In this document: one piece after another, positions 17,364-57,710 of the stretch
Layout of the letters: every line of letters starts with the position of its first letter
Position numbering within the stretch: position 1 is the first letter of the stretch
Origin: Polyangiaceae bacterium
Lineage (GTDB): Bacteria; Myxococcota_A; Polyangia; Polyangiales; Polyangiaceae
DNA length: 64,000 nucleotides
Assembly: GCA_013214025.1 (NCBI GenBank)
Contig: JABSRN010000003.1
Coordinates: 124,001 to 188,000 of the forward strand
Direction: 5' to 3'
Notes under the pieces: model-generated
What the model was told of the DNA's origin: nothing
Seen by the model: only the letters and a program-made list of their open reading frames with translations
The model's database searches: none
Translations under genes and position numbers: made by a program

Positions 17364-18110
17364 GTGTCGGAAGGCGTTGTACTGATCATCGATGGTGGTG
17401 AAGACTCAGCGGGTCGTTTTGCGGCCGCGCTCCGTGAAGAGGGGTTCCAGGTGAAGATCTCTGGCAACGCCCGGGACGCCCTGACACAGCTCCAGCAATT
17501 TCCGCCGGATTGTGTGCTGTGCGACTTCGATCTGCCGGACATTGACGGCTATTGGGTGGTTTCTCGAGTCCGCGCATCGGCAGCAAAGGTGCGAGCCGTA
17601 CCGTTCGTGATGCTGATGCCGAGCAGCGAGAGCATCGCGCGTATGCAAGATATCGCCGACGGCGCGGATGCCTATATTGAAAAGCCGGGTGAGACACGTG
17701 AGGTGGTCGCCCAGGTCTCGGCTCTCGTCGGGATGATCGCCCGTCTCAAAGAAAGGGAGTCCCTCACCGCTGTTTCAGCGAGCGGACCCACGGCGTTTCG
17801 TGGCGATCTGTCGCAAATGTCTCTTGGTACTCTGCTGACCATGCTCGATATGGAGCGGCGCGAAGGGACTGTCCGTATTGACGACGAAAAAAACAACCAC
17901 ATGGTTGTGGAAATCAAAGAGGGATCCATCGTGAGTGCGACGGTCAACGGCAAGAAAACGCCGAGCATCGATGTTCTCCGACGCGCTCTAGGGCTTACCG
18001 GCGGACGCTTTACGTTCCAGCCGGGCGAGATCAAAACCAAGCTCGCCAAGCGACAGGCGATTCAGCACCTCATGCTGGAGGCCATGCGTCTCGAGGACGA
18101 AGAAGCCTAG
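17364..18110 (+). CDS. response regulator receiver with C-terminal DUF4388-type domain
   Basis: 248 residues. An N-terminal receiver (about 1-120) has the phosphoacceptor region CDFDLPDIDGYWV and the conserved lysine in YIEKPGE. After a short helix, residues 145-245 match the DUF4388 / PatA-like domain common in myxobacteria (FRGDLSQMSLGTLLTMLDMERREG... GRFTFQPGE). That domain is thought to mediate protein contacts and not DNA binding. The 3' end overlaps the end of the convergent kinase gene by 41 bases, probably because that gene is frameshifted. Confidence 0.88.
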   Translation: MSEGVVLIIDGGEDSAGRFAAALREEGFQVKISGNARDALTQLQQFPPDCVLCDFDLPDIDGYWVVSRVRASAAKVRAVPFVMLMPSSESIARMQDIADGADAYIEKPGETREVVAQVSALVGMIARLKERESLTAVSASGPTAFRGDLSQMSLGTLLTMLDMERREGTVRIDDEKNNHMVVEIKEGSIVSATVNGKKTPSIDVLRRALGLTGGRFTFQPGEIKTKLAKRQAIQHLMLEAMRLEDEEA

Positions 18111-20388
18111 GGCGATTCGGTTTCTTGGGGAGCGACGGGCGAGTGCCCGGGGCTGCGTTGTCGCCCGGGGCTGCGTTGTCGCCCGGGGCTGCGTTGTCGC
18201 CCGGGGCTGAGCCCCGCCGCTCCCCAGCCCAAGCCACCGAGTAGCCAGCCTCCCAGCATCGGGGCTCCGAGCCCAGCCCCGGGCGACAACGCAGCCCCGG
18301 GCGACAACGCAGCCCCGGGCGACAACGCAGCCCCGGGCGACAACGCAGCCCCGGGCGACAACGCAGCCCCGGGCGACAACGCAGCCCCGGGCGACAACGC
18401 AGCCCCGGCGATGGGTTTGTCGTCGGGGCAGCGGGCGCGGGGGCCAGCGGCGCCGGCACGACGGGCATGGGGTTCAGGCCTGAATTGGCAGGCTGTGGTT
18501 TTGGGTTTTCCATCGGTTTGAATGGAGCGGAGGGCTTTTTCCCCGTCGGGTCGGGGGAGCGCGGCGGAGCTGAGTCCCGCGGGCTGGCGGCGTCTGCCGT
18601 GCGGATTGATGCATCGGTATCGTTGAGCATTACCTGAGCGGCTAAGTCGACTGAAATAGGAGCGTGGGTCGGAAGTAGCTCAGCGTCCGGCGCGAGTACG
18701 GGCACCGGCACGGTGGGTTCGACGCCGGGAATTCTGCGCAAACGAACGATCAGCTTCGAGGTGGAGCCGTCGACCTTTACTTTGCGCGAGTGGAATCCCT
18801 GACGACGTACCTCGAGTATGGCGGTTTGCCCGTCGCGGATTCGTGCGTTGATGGGCATGGTGCCCAGATCCTTGCCGTTCTCAAAAACGTGGGCATCAAT
18901 TGGCGAGAAGACCAGGGCGACTGTGTGGAACTCTTCGCCCCCGGCGTCAGCGGCTGCTGACTCGTGCGCGCCGCCGCGCCCTCCAGGTACGACGCTGAGT
19001 AGCCACCAACTGATGGAGAGTAGGCAGGCACCGATTACGTAGGTCTGCCAGCGTTGGTTCAGCGGGCGTCGAGCGCGCGCTCGTTGGATGAACGGCGCGT
19101 ACTCTTCGACTGCATCCCGAGCGAGCATGTCGCCGACAGCCTTCGGTAGGCCGCCGCTGGCGCAGAGGTTGAGATCGTCGGCTAGCGCGTCCATCGACGG
19201 GTATCGAAGGGGAGGCTCTTTGGACAGGCATTTCAGAATGATCGCCTCGATTTCGGGACGAATCTCTACAGGTGGTTCGAGTCCGCTGGGAGCGATCGGC
19301 GGCACGTACATGTGCTGGGTCAGAATGCCGAGGGGGTTCTCGCCGTCGAAGGGGACCTGGCCAGTCGCCATCTCGTAGAGGATCACGCCGAGCGCATAGA
19401 CGTCGGTGCGAGCGTCGATGTCCGAGCCCGAGCCTTGCTCGGGAGACATATAGTGTGGCGTGCCAAAAATCTTTCCGGCTCGGGTGAGCTTGTTCTGTGC
19501 GCCGGCGACTTTGGCGATTCCAAAGTCTAGTATCTTCAAGAAGTCAGCCTGTCCGTCTCGCTCGGTTAGGAACAAGTTGTCGGGTTTCAAATCGCGGTGA
19601 ACGATGCCGGCCTTGTGAGCGGCCCCCAGACCTTCCGTGATTTGAATGCCCAGCTGGATCAGCTCAGCTTCTGGCAGCGCGGACCCCTTCATGCGCGCGC
19701 TCAACGGCTCGCCCACCAGAAACTCCATCACCAGGTAGGTGGCGCCGTCTGGCAACTCGCCAAAATCCGTAATGTCTACGATGCGGCTATTGCCGATCGA
19801 AGAGGCCGCCTTGGCTTCGATGAGAAAGCGCTCGGTGGCCTCGGTGTCTCCAGCTAAATCGTGCCGCAGAATTTTCATCGCCACGATCTTGTCGATCACG
19901 CGATGCTGGCACTTGTACACAACGCCCATGCCGCCCTGAGCGATCACGGATTTGATGTGGTAGCGGCCGTCCACAATGTAGCCGACGTATCGCGCCGGAT
20001 CGGGCAGATCTTCGTCGCGTTCGTACTTGTCGGGATCGTCGGAGGCGCTCAGCGCTGTTTCGCGGATCGAGCTGGATTCCCAAGTGACCTTGCGCAGGCT
20101 GCCGGCTTTTTCGTCGGTCGGGCGCACGTCCAGTTCGGTCGGGGCTCGCGGTGTTTCGGTGCCCGCTCCTTCCCGCAATGTCGAGTGCGCTTCGACTTCG
20201 GTGGCGGCGACATCCTCCGTATCGATGCCGGTAACACTGGCGAGGCCGTCAGCGCTGTCGAGAACGTCAGCTGTGATCGCGGGCGCAGCCGAGCTTGTCC
20301 GCTCGGCCGCTTCCGTCGAGTCCTCACCGGTATTCTCCGAGGAGGGGGACTCCTCCAGATCCGGCTCTTTTCCATCGTGCTCGCTCAT
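18070..20388 (-). CDS. transmembrane Ser/Thr protein kinase with PEGA-like and repeat tail (tail probably frameshifted)
   Basis: 772 residues from ATG 20386-20388. Kinase domain about 140-405 with GQGGMGVVY-type loop (AQGGMGVVY), catalytic lysine in AMKIL, HRDLKPDN, DFG and SPEQ, so it should be active. A membrane helix lies near 447-467, then a PEGA-like beta domain (VFSPIDAHVFENGKDLG). The C-terminal tail is Pro/Ala-rich up to about 18410. There one base is missing from the first 18-bp repeat; with it the repeats would read PGAALS and the protein would end at 18107 in VAPQETESP. As sequenced it reads arginine/cysteine-rich GLRCRP repeats and runs into the neighbouring gene. Confidence 0.88.
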   Translation of the reverse strand: MSEHDGKEPDLEESPSSENTGEDSTEAAERTSSAAPAITADVLDSADGLASVTGIDTEDVAATEVEAHSTLREGAGTETPRAPTELDVRPTDEKAGSLRKVTWESSSIRETALSASDDPDKYERDEDLPDPARYVGYIVDGRYHIKSVIAQGGMGVVYKCQHRVIDKIVAMKILRHDLAGDTEATERFLIEAKAASSIGNSRIVDITDFGELPDGATYLVMEFLVGEPLSARMKGSALPEAELIQLGIQITEGLGAAHKAGIVHRDLKPDNLFLTERDGQADFLKILDFGIAKVAGAQNKLTRAGKIFGTPHYMSPEQGSGSDIDARTDVYALGVILYEMATGQVPFDGENPLGILTQHMYVPPIAPSGLEPPVEIRPEIEAIILKCLSKEPPLRYPSMDALADDLNLCASGGLPKAVGDMLARDAVEEYAPFIQRARARRPLNQRWQTYVIGACLLSISWWLLSVVPGGRGGAHESAAADAGGEEFHTVALVFSPIDAHVFENGKDLGTMPINARIRDGQTAILEVRRQGFHSRKVKVDGSTSKLIVRLRRIPGVEPTVPVPVLAPDAELLPTHAPISVDLAAQVMLNDTDASIRTADAASPRDSAPPRSPDPTGKKPSAPFKPMENPKPQPANSGLNPMPVVPAPLAPAPAAPTTNPSPGLRCRPGLRCRPGLRCRPGLRCRPGLRCRPGLRCRPGLRCRPGLGSEPRCWEAGYSVAWAGERRGSAPGDNAAPGDNAAPGDNAAPGTRPSLPKKPNRPRLLRPRDAWPPA
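18145..18408. repeat. 18-bp repeat array with perfect 64-bp inverted arms
   Basis: Left block: three copies plus ten bases of an 18-bp unit (18145-18208). Right block: the same unit in reverse orientation, six full copies plus partial ends (18275-18408). The left block is the exact reverse complement of 18275-18338, separated by 66 bases. The array codes for the kinase tail in both orientations. It is not CRISPR: there are no spacers. Confidence 0.93.
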
Positions 20389-20475
20389 GCAGCCCTGGCT
20401 GTGTACCAACTGTTGGGATCGGGGTCGACCCGCTCATTGCGTCGGTTTTTGTCACTTTTTTGGGAATATTTCGGC

Positions 20476-26181: not shown

Positions 26182-27381
26182 ATGAAGCTCCATTACGACG
26201 AGGAAACCGAAAAATTCCGCACTGAGCTGCGAGACTGGCTCAGCAAAAATCAGCCGACCAAGGCCGAAATGGACGCGGAACCGCCGAAGAGCTCGGCGCA
26301 CCTTCCGGACTGGGCGAGGGCTTGGCAGCTCCGCTTGTTCAATGCGGGTCTCTTGGTTCCCGGTTGGCCCAAGGAGCTTGGTGGCCGCGACGCGACGCCG
26401 ATTCAGCAACTCATCTACTTTGAGGAGTTTGCTAACATCGGCCCCTGGCGCGCTTACAACATGCAGGGCGTGCAAATTATCACGCCCTCCATTCTCGATT
26501 TCGGCACAGAAGGCCAGAAGGAGCGCTTTGTGCTGCCCTGTTTGCGGGGTGAAATCACCTGGTGTCTAGGCATGAGCGAGCCGGGCGCGGGCAGCGACTT
26601 GGCGGGGCTCTCTACCCGTGCGGATCGGGACGGCGACGATTTCGTCATCAATGGTCAGAAGGTTTGGACTTCGGGCGCTGCAGAAGCAGACTTTTGTTTT
26701 TGCTTCGTCCGCACGGATCAGGACGCCCCCAAGCACAAGGGCATCAGCGTGCTGATCATCGACATGAAGTCCGAAGGCCTAGAAGCGCGTCCCTTGCCCG
26801 AGCTGACCGACCGCCATCACGGCGACTTCAACGAGGTGTTCTTCGACAACGTTCGAGTCCCAGCGAGCAATCTTGTCGGCAAGCTCAACGACGGTTGGCG
26901 CATGGCCGCCGGCTCTCTCGCGCACGAGCGCGGCATGCTTTGGACCGGCCAGTGCGCTCGCATCGAGCGGCGCCTGCGCGAGCTTGTCGAGCTCGGCAAG
27001 ACTCAGAAGGGCCCCGACGGCAAACCCTTGAACGAAAGCAAGAAGTTCAAGGAAGAGCTCGGCGAGTTGTGGACCAGCGGTCAGGCGCTGAAATTCATGG
27101 GCTACCGAGGCTTCAGCAAGTTCGCCCGCGGCGAAGCGTCTCCGGAGCACTCCGTGATGAAGCTGGCCTGCGGCGAGATGGAGCAGAACCTGTTCCTGTG
27201 GGGCGCGGAGGTAACCGGTCCCCGTTCCTTGGACACCCACCACAAGCGGGTGGCTTACGACGCGCCGGCTCCGTGGGCGCGGCAGTATCTGTCCAGCTTC
27301 AGCTACACGATTGCTGGCGGCACATCTGAGATTCAGCGCAATATTATTGCTCAGCGTGTGCTCGGGCTTCCTCGGAAGTAA
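26182..27381 (+). CDS. acyl-CoA dehydrogenase
   Basis: 399 residues, standard length. The FAD- and substrate-binding segments CLGMSEPGAGSDLAGL, INGQKVWTSGA and the C-terminal TIAGGTSEIQRNIIAQRVLGLPRK are intact. It oxidises acyl-CoA at the alpha-beta position and passes electrons to ETF. The ATG is preceded by TATGGT ending eight bases upstream. A second, less similar acyl-CoA dehydrogenase lies at 29213-30343; together with the carboxylase operon this suggests fatty-acid or branched-chain degradation capacity. A large hairpin follows the stop. Confidence 0.95.
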   Translation: MKLHYDEETEKFRTELRDWLSKNQPTKAEMDAEPPKSSAHLPDWARAWQLRLFNAGLLVPGWPKELGGRDATPIQQLIYFEEFANIGPWRAYNMQGVQIITPSILDFGTEGQKERFVLPCLRGEITWCLGMSEPGAGSDLAGLSTRADRDGDDFVINGQKVWTSGAAEADFCFCFVRTDQDAPKHKGISVLIIDMKSEGLEARPLPELTDRHHGDFNEVFFDNVRVPASNLVGKLNDGWRMAAGSLAHERGMLWTGQCARIERRLRELVELGKTQKGPDGKPLNESKKFKEELGELWTSGQALKFMGYRGFSKFARGEASPEHSVMKLACGEMEQNLFLWGAEVTGPRSLDTHHKRVAYDAPAPWARQYLSSFSYTIAGGTSEIQRNIIAQRVLGLPRK

Positions 27382-27394
27382 CCCTGATCGGCGC

Positions 27395-27457
27395 CAACGC
27401 AGAGCTAGATTAATTAGCCCCCCTTTGGTGAGGGCTAATTAATCTAGCTCTGCGTTG
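27395..27457. terminator. perfect 26-bp inverted repeat after the acyl-CoA dehydrogenase gene
   Basis: Arms 27395-27420 and 27432-27457 are exact reverse complements around an 11-base loop. The arms are unusually AT-rich for this DNA (core gattaattag). An imperfect extension on both sides (ggcgc, gaagtaaccc) carries the symmetry into the gene's last codons. It could act as a transcription terminator or mRNA 3' stabiliser, though there is no long T run; a miniature mobile-element end is the alternative. Confidence 0.75.
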
Positions 27458-27463
27458 TTGTTT

Positions 27464-27750
27464 GCGCCGGGGTTACTTCTTCCTGTTTGTGTGTCTGGGG
27501 CCCCGGAGCCCCAGACGGCGTGCAGTTGGCGTGATGGTGGGGGCCCCGGCGTTAATGCCTTGTGTGGGCGTTCAACCATTTCGGCCTTGGGTATGCGCCG
27601 GGGTTACTGCACCTGTTTGTGTGTCTGGGGCCCCGGAGCCCCAGACGGCGTGCAGTTGGCGTGATGGTGGGGTTGATAGCGCGGGGCTTTGGGGTTGCGA
27701 CCAACCCTGATCGGCTTCGGGTATGCGCGGGGTTACTTCTCTGCAGGGCA
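27464..27750. repeat. about 130-bp tandem intergenic repeat containing a GC hairpin
   Basis: Two copies (from 27464 and 27595) begin gcgccggggttact and share a 58-base core that includes gtctggggc / gccccagac, a nine-base stem with a six-base loop. A third copy beginning near 27725 is cut short after the ggggttacttct part. The second halves of the copies differ. The 500-base gap 27382-27897 otherwise holds no gene that I can support. Confidence 0.85.
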
Positions 27751-56687: not shown

Positions 56688-57710
56688 CTAAACAGAGCTA
56701 TGCTCTGAGACTAGCGCGAAGCGAGAATCAGTGTGCCCATCCGGATGCGTCAGGTCGATGCGCCGGAGGGCGTCGGGCAACCACTCGATTTCGTTATCCC
56801 CTAGTTCTTCGAGATAGGCTGTTCTCACGTGCGGATTACCCGCCACCTTATGCAGCGTGCCGCTGATGGCGTTGCAAACTTCTTACCCGCCACCTTATGC
56901 AGCGTGCCGCTGATGGCGTTGCAAACTTCGGAAGCTGCTGCGATAGAGTCTTCGGAGGATTTTTAGCGCTTCAACTGATTGTCGCGCTCGCCTTCGTGTA
57001 GCATCATCAATGTCCCGCCAAGGTAAACGCGGAGCTTGAGAGCCAGCAAGATAACGCCGATCCCCTCGTCGTCATCGTTGAGCACGCGAGCGCTAAAGTC
57101 GCTCTTAAGCTTGGTTGTCGGCTCTGATGTAGTCGCGTCGAATGCAGTGTCGAGCAACATGGCAACGCATTCGTTGATCTCATCCGGGCTCGAAAAGACG
57201 AACTTGGGCTCCTGCTTTTCCGCTTCTTCCTCGGTTGTCGCCGGTTCTGCCTGGGCGGGATTGTCGCTACTTGGGGTCGCGGCTTGCGGCGCACCCGCCG
57301 GAGGCGCGCCGCAAGCGAAATACCCGGGGGCGGTGCAGCGACCGCAGCGAGAGCGAGCCGCTGATGGCGTCGAATGTGGGCAATTGGCCGGCCACGGTTT
57401 GTGGTCCTGCCTGGGAGATGACGGCAGCTGATACGAGTTTTTCTTCGATTTCTGTGACTCTTCTCTTCAGCCGGTCATGCGCGGCCTTGAGCAACAAAAA
57501 GTCGACTCGACGCTCAGAGATTTGCGTTCTAGTGGAGTTTTTGTCGACGGACCTTTGTTGCTTGGCGAGTCCCTGAATGTAGCCCGGCGAAATCGTCGAT
57601 AAGGGCCACTCTCCCTGAACGGCGTCGTAGCTGCGATCCTCGCCGCCGCCGGCTTCGGCGAACAGCGCTTGGGCACCGTTGGCGAGATACTTCCCGTCCT
57701 AGCGTGGCAT
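56688..57710 (-). pseudogene. remnant of a coiled-coil / zinc-ribbon / CheX-like protein
   Basis: Reading across lesions gives a protein of about 340 residues: MPR-stop (TAG at codon 4), then an N-terminal part with PGYIQGLAKQQRSVDKNS, a helical charged stretch (LKRRVTEIEEKLVS), a zinc-ribbon-like CGRCTAPGYFACGAP after a frameshift near 57345, a Pro/Ala/Glu linker, and a C-terminal domain with GVILLALKLRVYLGGTLMMLHEG and EVCNAISGTLHKVAG, resembling CheC/CheX-like phosphatase folds. A TAA at 56963-56965 and a 47-bp duplication (56836-56929) break that domain. The ancestral end is VSEHSSV at 56688. Family assignment is tentative; that it is a broken gene is well supported. Confidence 0.72.
56836..56929. 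repeat. perfect 47-bp tandem duplication
   Basis: 56836-56882 is repeated exactly at 56883-56929. Since 47 is not a multiple of three, it shifts the frame of the surrounding pseudogene; removing one copy restores HKVAGNPHVRTAYLEEL. Confidence 0.95.

Follow-up and report, generated by a model that had tools for sequence, protein, structure and literature searches.

The window analysed here, a 64,000-nucleotide stretch within a 228-kb contig, comes from a single draft assembly of a 5.77-Mb genome in 184 contigs. On its minus strand, an ORF at positions 18070 to 20409 encodes a Ser/Thr protein kinase of 779 aa as now read (PF00069 match, E = 8.6e-47). The protein comprises the kinase domain (residues 150-410), a hydrophobic segment at about residues 457-475, a short extracytoplasmic beta-like domain, and a low-complexity tail. 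Pfam did not recognize the beta-like domain; its relatives, at about 31-51% identity, occur in 40 other genomes of the same family. The membrane Ser/Thr kinases of this family share a kinase domain, a hydrophobic segment, a related C-terminal domain, and a Pro/Ala-rich low-complexity tail. The convergent gene on the plus strand (17364 to 18110) codes for a 248-aa protein with a response-regulator receiver domain (PF00072) and a DUF4388 domain (PF14332). In a scan of genome contigs, the only match of the neighbouring protein was a distant relative in a Myxococcales MAG. The kinase ORF, in its present frame, overlaps the 3′ end of the convergent gene by 41 bases, as stated in the original prediction.

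Two arrays of one 18-bp unit sit in the last part of the kinase ORF in opposite orientations. The array nearest the gene end (18145 to 18209, minus strand) holds 3.6 copies and the other (18274 to 18408, plus strand) holds 7.5 copies, both 100% perfect, with a unique 64-bp centre (18210 to 18273) between them. The predicted inverted array is therefore real, and its proposed dimensions (64-bp arms around 66 bases) were close to the perfect 65-bp arms (68 bp at 99%) and the 64-bp centre that we find. Allowing up to two mismatches, no further copy of the unit was detected in the 5.77-Mb genome. The next-longest inverted repeat in the window is 26 bp. Since the unit is unique in the genome and every other inverted repeat in the window is far shorter, the opposed array is not a chance arrangement. 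A contig-wide search showed no comparable opposed arrays elsewhere in the 228 kb. A mobile or dispersed repeat was also considered and ruled out, as the unit is unique in the genome and absent from viral contigs. No known RNA family was found in the window. The unit contains the palindrome CCCGGG.

We also noticed repeats at other places. In the window, a perfect 26-bp inverted repeat with an 11-base loop and an A+T-rich core (27395-27457) begins 14 bases past the stop of an acyl-CoA dehydrogenase-like gene (26182-27381) and is followed by a 130-bp tandem repeat (27463-27737), while a 47-bp unit forms two perfect tandem copies at 56836-56929. In a separate stretch (L074), a perfect 27-bp inverted repeat with a 22-base gap (19287-19362) lies at the end of a Gly-rich lipoprotein-like ORF (19626-19327, minus strand), the last codons of which (TPPGGGNA) are mirrored just past the stop.

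In the present kinase frame, seven units read GLRCRP, and three units of the second arm, nearest the gene end, already read APGDNA. Among the same-family kinases read, the Arg/Cys-rich GLRCRP block is present in this kinase only. The original prediction ascribed it to one C missing just before the array, and the difference itself is there. At the junction (18400 to 18412), the kinase strand reads TCG-CCGGGG where the unit has TCG-CCCGGGG; comparing the flanking arm (TCG-CCGGGGCTG) with the array unit (TCG-CCCGGGGCTG), the C is what differs. Restoring it does yield seven PGAALS repeats and a stop at 18109-18107, in place of the seven GLRCRP repeats of the frame as it stands. All three kinase-strand frames of the unique centre are atypical. 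The plus strand of the centre encodes SPAAPQPKPPSSQPPSIGAPS, which runs straight into the APGDNA repeats, and this continuity made us suspect an inversion of the centre together with the seven-copy array.

Inverting 18201-18408 fuses both arrays into one perfect, uninterrupted array of 191 bp and 10.6 copies. Exactly ten neighbouring endpoint pairs (18201-18210 / 18399-18408, an ambiguity over 9 bp) are equivalent in restoring this array, so a 9-bp inverted repeat, CCGGGGCTG...CAGCCCCGG, marks the breakpoints. In the unchanged kinase frame, the flipped tail reads NPSPGLSPAAPQPKPPSSQPPSIGAPSPA, then ten PGDNAA repeats, and then the present end; no indel is needed, and the protein length stays at 779 aa. 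The seven-copy array thereby changes from GLRCRP to PGDNAA, and the shorter array would already be in its original orientation. Flipping raises GC3 from 0.75 to 0.82. No separate event is needed for the missing C because, under the inversion, it belongs to the flanking half of the 9-bp repeat; it is most likely the signature of an inversion junction and not a lost base.

Performing composition tests, we scored these readings against the tails lying 3′ of the homologous domain in 24 related kinases (1555 residues). These tails contain 22% Pro, 19% Ala, and 10% Ser, and no Cys, which supports the earlier claim that the tail did not start out as GLRCRP. Over 92 codons, the log-odds were -89.9 bits for the current reading, -27.7 bits with one C added, -89.4 bits with one base removed, and +31.0 bits for the inversion, values that rank the readings and are not probabilities because the model is small and repeated units were scored as independent. 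The C-restored tail, which had been proposed to match the rest of the protein, thus scores negatively against the relatives' tails. On the same ranking scale, the best of 63,189 inversions (18210-18405) improved the score by 123.8 bits, the leading ones lying at the array boundaries, and the best single indel improved it by 64 bits. Control inversions of 23 relatives' tails gained at most 18.6 bits, and when 49 pieces of relatives' tails were scored in all six frames, the true one ranked top in 47. Per unit, GLRCRP scored -11.6 bits versus +2.3 bits for PGDNAA. The non-repeated centre by itself points to an inversion too. Its six-frame log-odds was +9.0 on the plus strand versus -2.4 to -13.9 for the others; the kinase strand gave -10 to -14 bits, and the top frame of the opposite strand was ahead by 11 bits. 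A similar hexapeptide repeat, GSAAAPGSAAAP, occurs in the tail of a related kinase (L049), where 18-bp repeats encoding GSAAAP at 1891-2040 are akin to the inferred APGDNA tail.

Another inversion (18145-18153 / 18276-18284) would likewise join the copies into one array of almost the same length (189 bp), which would read as GLRCRP and restore the centre. The centre is flipped relative to the original in both candidate inversions, and the GLRCRP-sense array appears disfavoured by protein composition alone. For the inversion of 18201-18408, the protein end that follows the array (GTRPSLPKKPNRPRLLRPRDAWPPA, where the ORF overlaps its convergent neighbour) looks by composition slightly less typical of a tail than does the +1 frame (GHSPVAPQETESP, then a stop), and an extra frameshift may have occurred there beside the inversion. 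We consider it highly likely that the kinase tail was recoded by a one-off microinversion of about 208 bp at a 9-bp inverted repeat, and we infer that the change ran from the APGDNA sense to the GLRCRP sense.

We propose that the disordered tail of this membrane Ser/Thr kinase contained a coding minisatellite and originally read SPAAPQPKPPSSQPPSIGAPSPA followed by about 10.6 units of PGDNAA. One arm of the 9-bp repeat, CCGGGGCTG, would lie in SPGLSP just upstream of the array, and the other, CAGCCCCGG, inside the array. One inversion, spanning about 208 bp, probably turned the unique stretch and about seven copies to the reverse orientation, the likely step being a switch of template during replication, or recombination between the two short arms, for which a recombinase would not be required. 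The ORF stayed open, since inverting a segment leaves its length unchanged and no in-frame stop occurs in either orientation. The event would have left coding inverted repeats of 63-68 bp, between which further inversions should all keep the frame; indeed, all 32 array-paired inversions preserve an open ORF of 779 aa. Since these repeats remain and every pairing keeps the ORF, ongoing flipping of the opposed arrays is possible, in line with the original view of the array as a rearrangement-prone spot. The relatives' tails are free in sequence and range from 3 to about 160 residues. The changed tail was probably tolerated because it lies beyond the hydrophobic segment and its length varies in relatives; judging from these comparisons, the extracytoplasmic tail is probably dispensable.

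The originally proposed cause, loss of one C at 18408/18409 from a tail of seven PGAALS repeats ending at 18107, would account for the one C fewer than in the unit, and its restored frame stops without overlap at the natural-looking end GHSPVAPQETESP, about 62 bits better than the current frame. It leaves the inverted array unexplained, however, turns the centre into GAPMLGGWLLGGLGWGAAG and the last copies, in the second array, into SPGRQR, and falls about 59 bits below the single inversion, making it very improbable. Equally improbable, in our view, is a role of the inverted repeat as a terminator of transcription between the two genes. The repeat does start 35 bases past the plus-strand stop, the mRNA folds far more strongly now than it would flipped back (-261 versus -146 kcal/mol over 330 nt), and two other long perfect hairpins stand at gene ends on the contig; but the stem has no terminator-like T run, lies inside the kinase ORF, and leaves the coding signal of the opposite strand unexplained. 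An artefact of assembly or library, in which the genome has one uninterrupted array and a fold-back chimera or misassembly produced the opposed ones, is unlikely. The fragmented draft, perfect repeats of up to 135 bp near short-read limits, and the palindrome in the unit speak for it, yet an uninterrupted array offers an assembler no long inverted repeat to mislead it, the two junctions are exact and keep the frame, and the contig holds nothing comparable. The assembled orientation may also represent a minority variant. We infer that the assembly is correct at this locus.

A programmed or ongoing phase-variable switch, an intragenic inverton whose tail alternates between APGDNA and GLRCRP, seems quite unlikely. 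The coding inverted repeats do flank a segment that is open in both orientations inside one ORF, and six tyrosine recombinases in the genome score above the cut-off. However, these PF00589 matches are all on other contigs, PF00239 (serine recombinase) has no match in the genome, the arms are tandem repeats and not a recombinase site, relatives vary freely in the length and sequence of the tail, and one orientation was seen in a single assembly. A site-specific recombinase at work was rejected, as neither PF00589 nor PF00239 has a match on the contig. Decidedly unlikely, too, is a multi-state coding inverton, in which the population would hold tails with varying numbers of flipped copies, from acidic APGDNA to basic, Cys-bearing GLRCRP.

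Template switching between short inverted repeats gives coding microinversions (Abraham and Hazkani-Covo 2021, PMC8604942). The one-off microinversion proposed for the kinase tail shares with them a short inverted repeat, inversion of the spacer, a kept frame, and replaced residues. At most five neighbouring residues change in those cases, whereas about 69 codons change here. Unlike in those cases, one arm lies within a tandem array, and the inversion would thereby have generated inverted repeats of much greater length. Intragenic invertons (Chanin et al. 2024, Nature 634:234, as cited in PMC11868660) likewise recode part of a protein by inversion within a gene; the kinase differs in that its arms are minisatellite copies with many registers, one orientation is known, and there is no link to a recombinase.

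The locus provides a readable footprint of how one inversion can recode a coding minisatellite wholesale while keeping the frame, and it illustrates that what looks like a one-base frameshift next to a repeat can in fact mark the junction of an inversion. Should the arrays still be flipping, the result would be an inverton with many states and no need for a dedicated recombinase. Such a multi-register in-frame inverton, if true, would tune the charge and disulphide capacity of the kinase tail.
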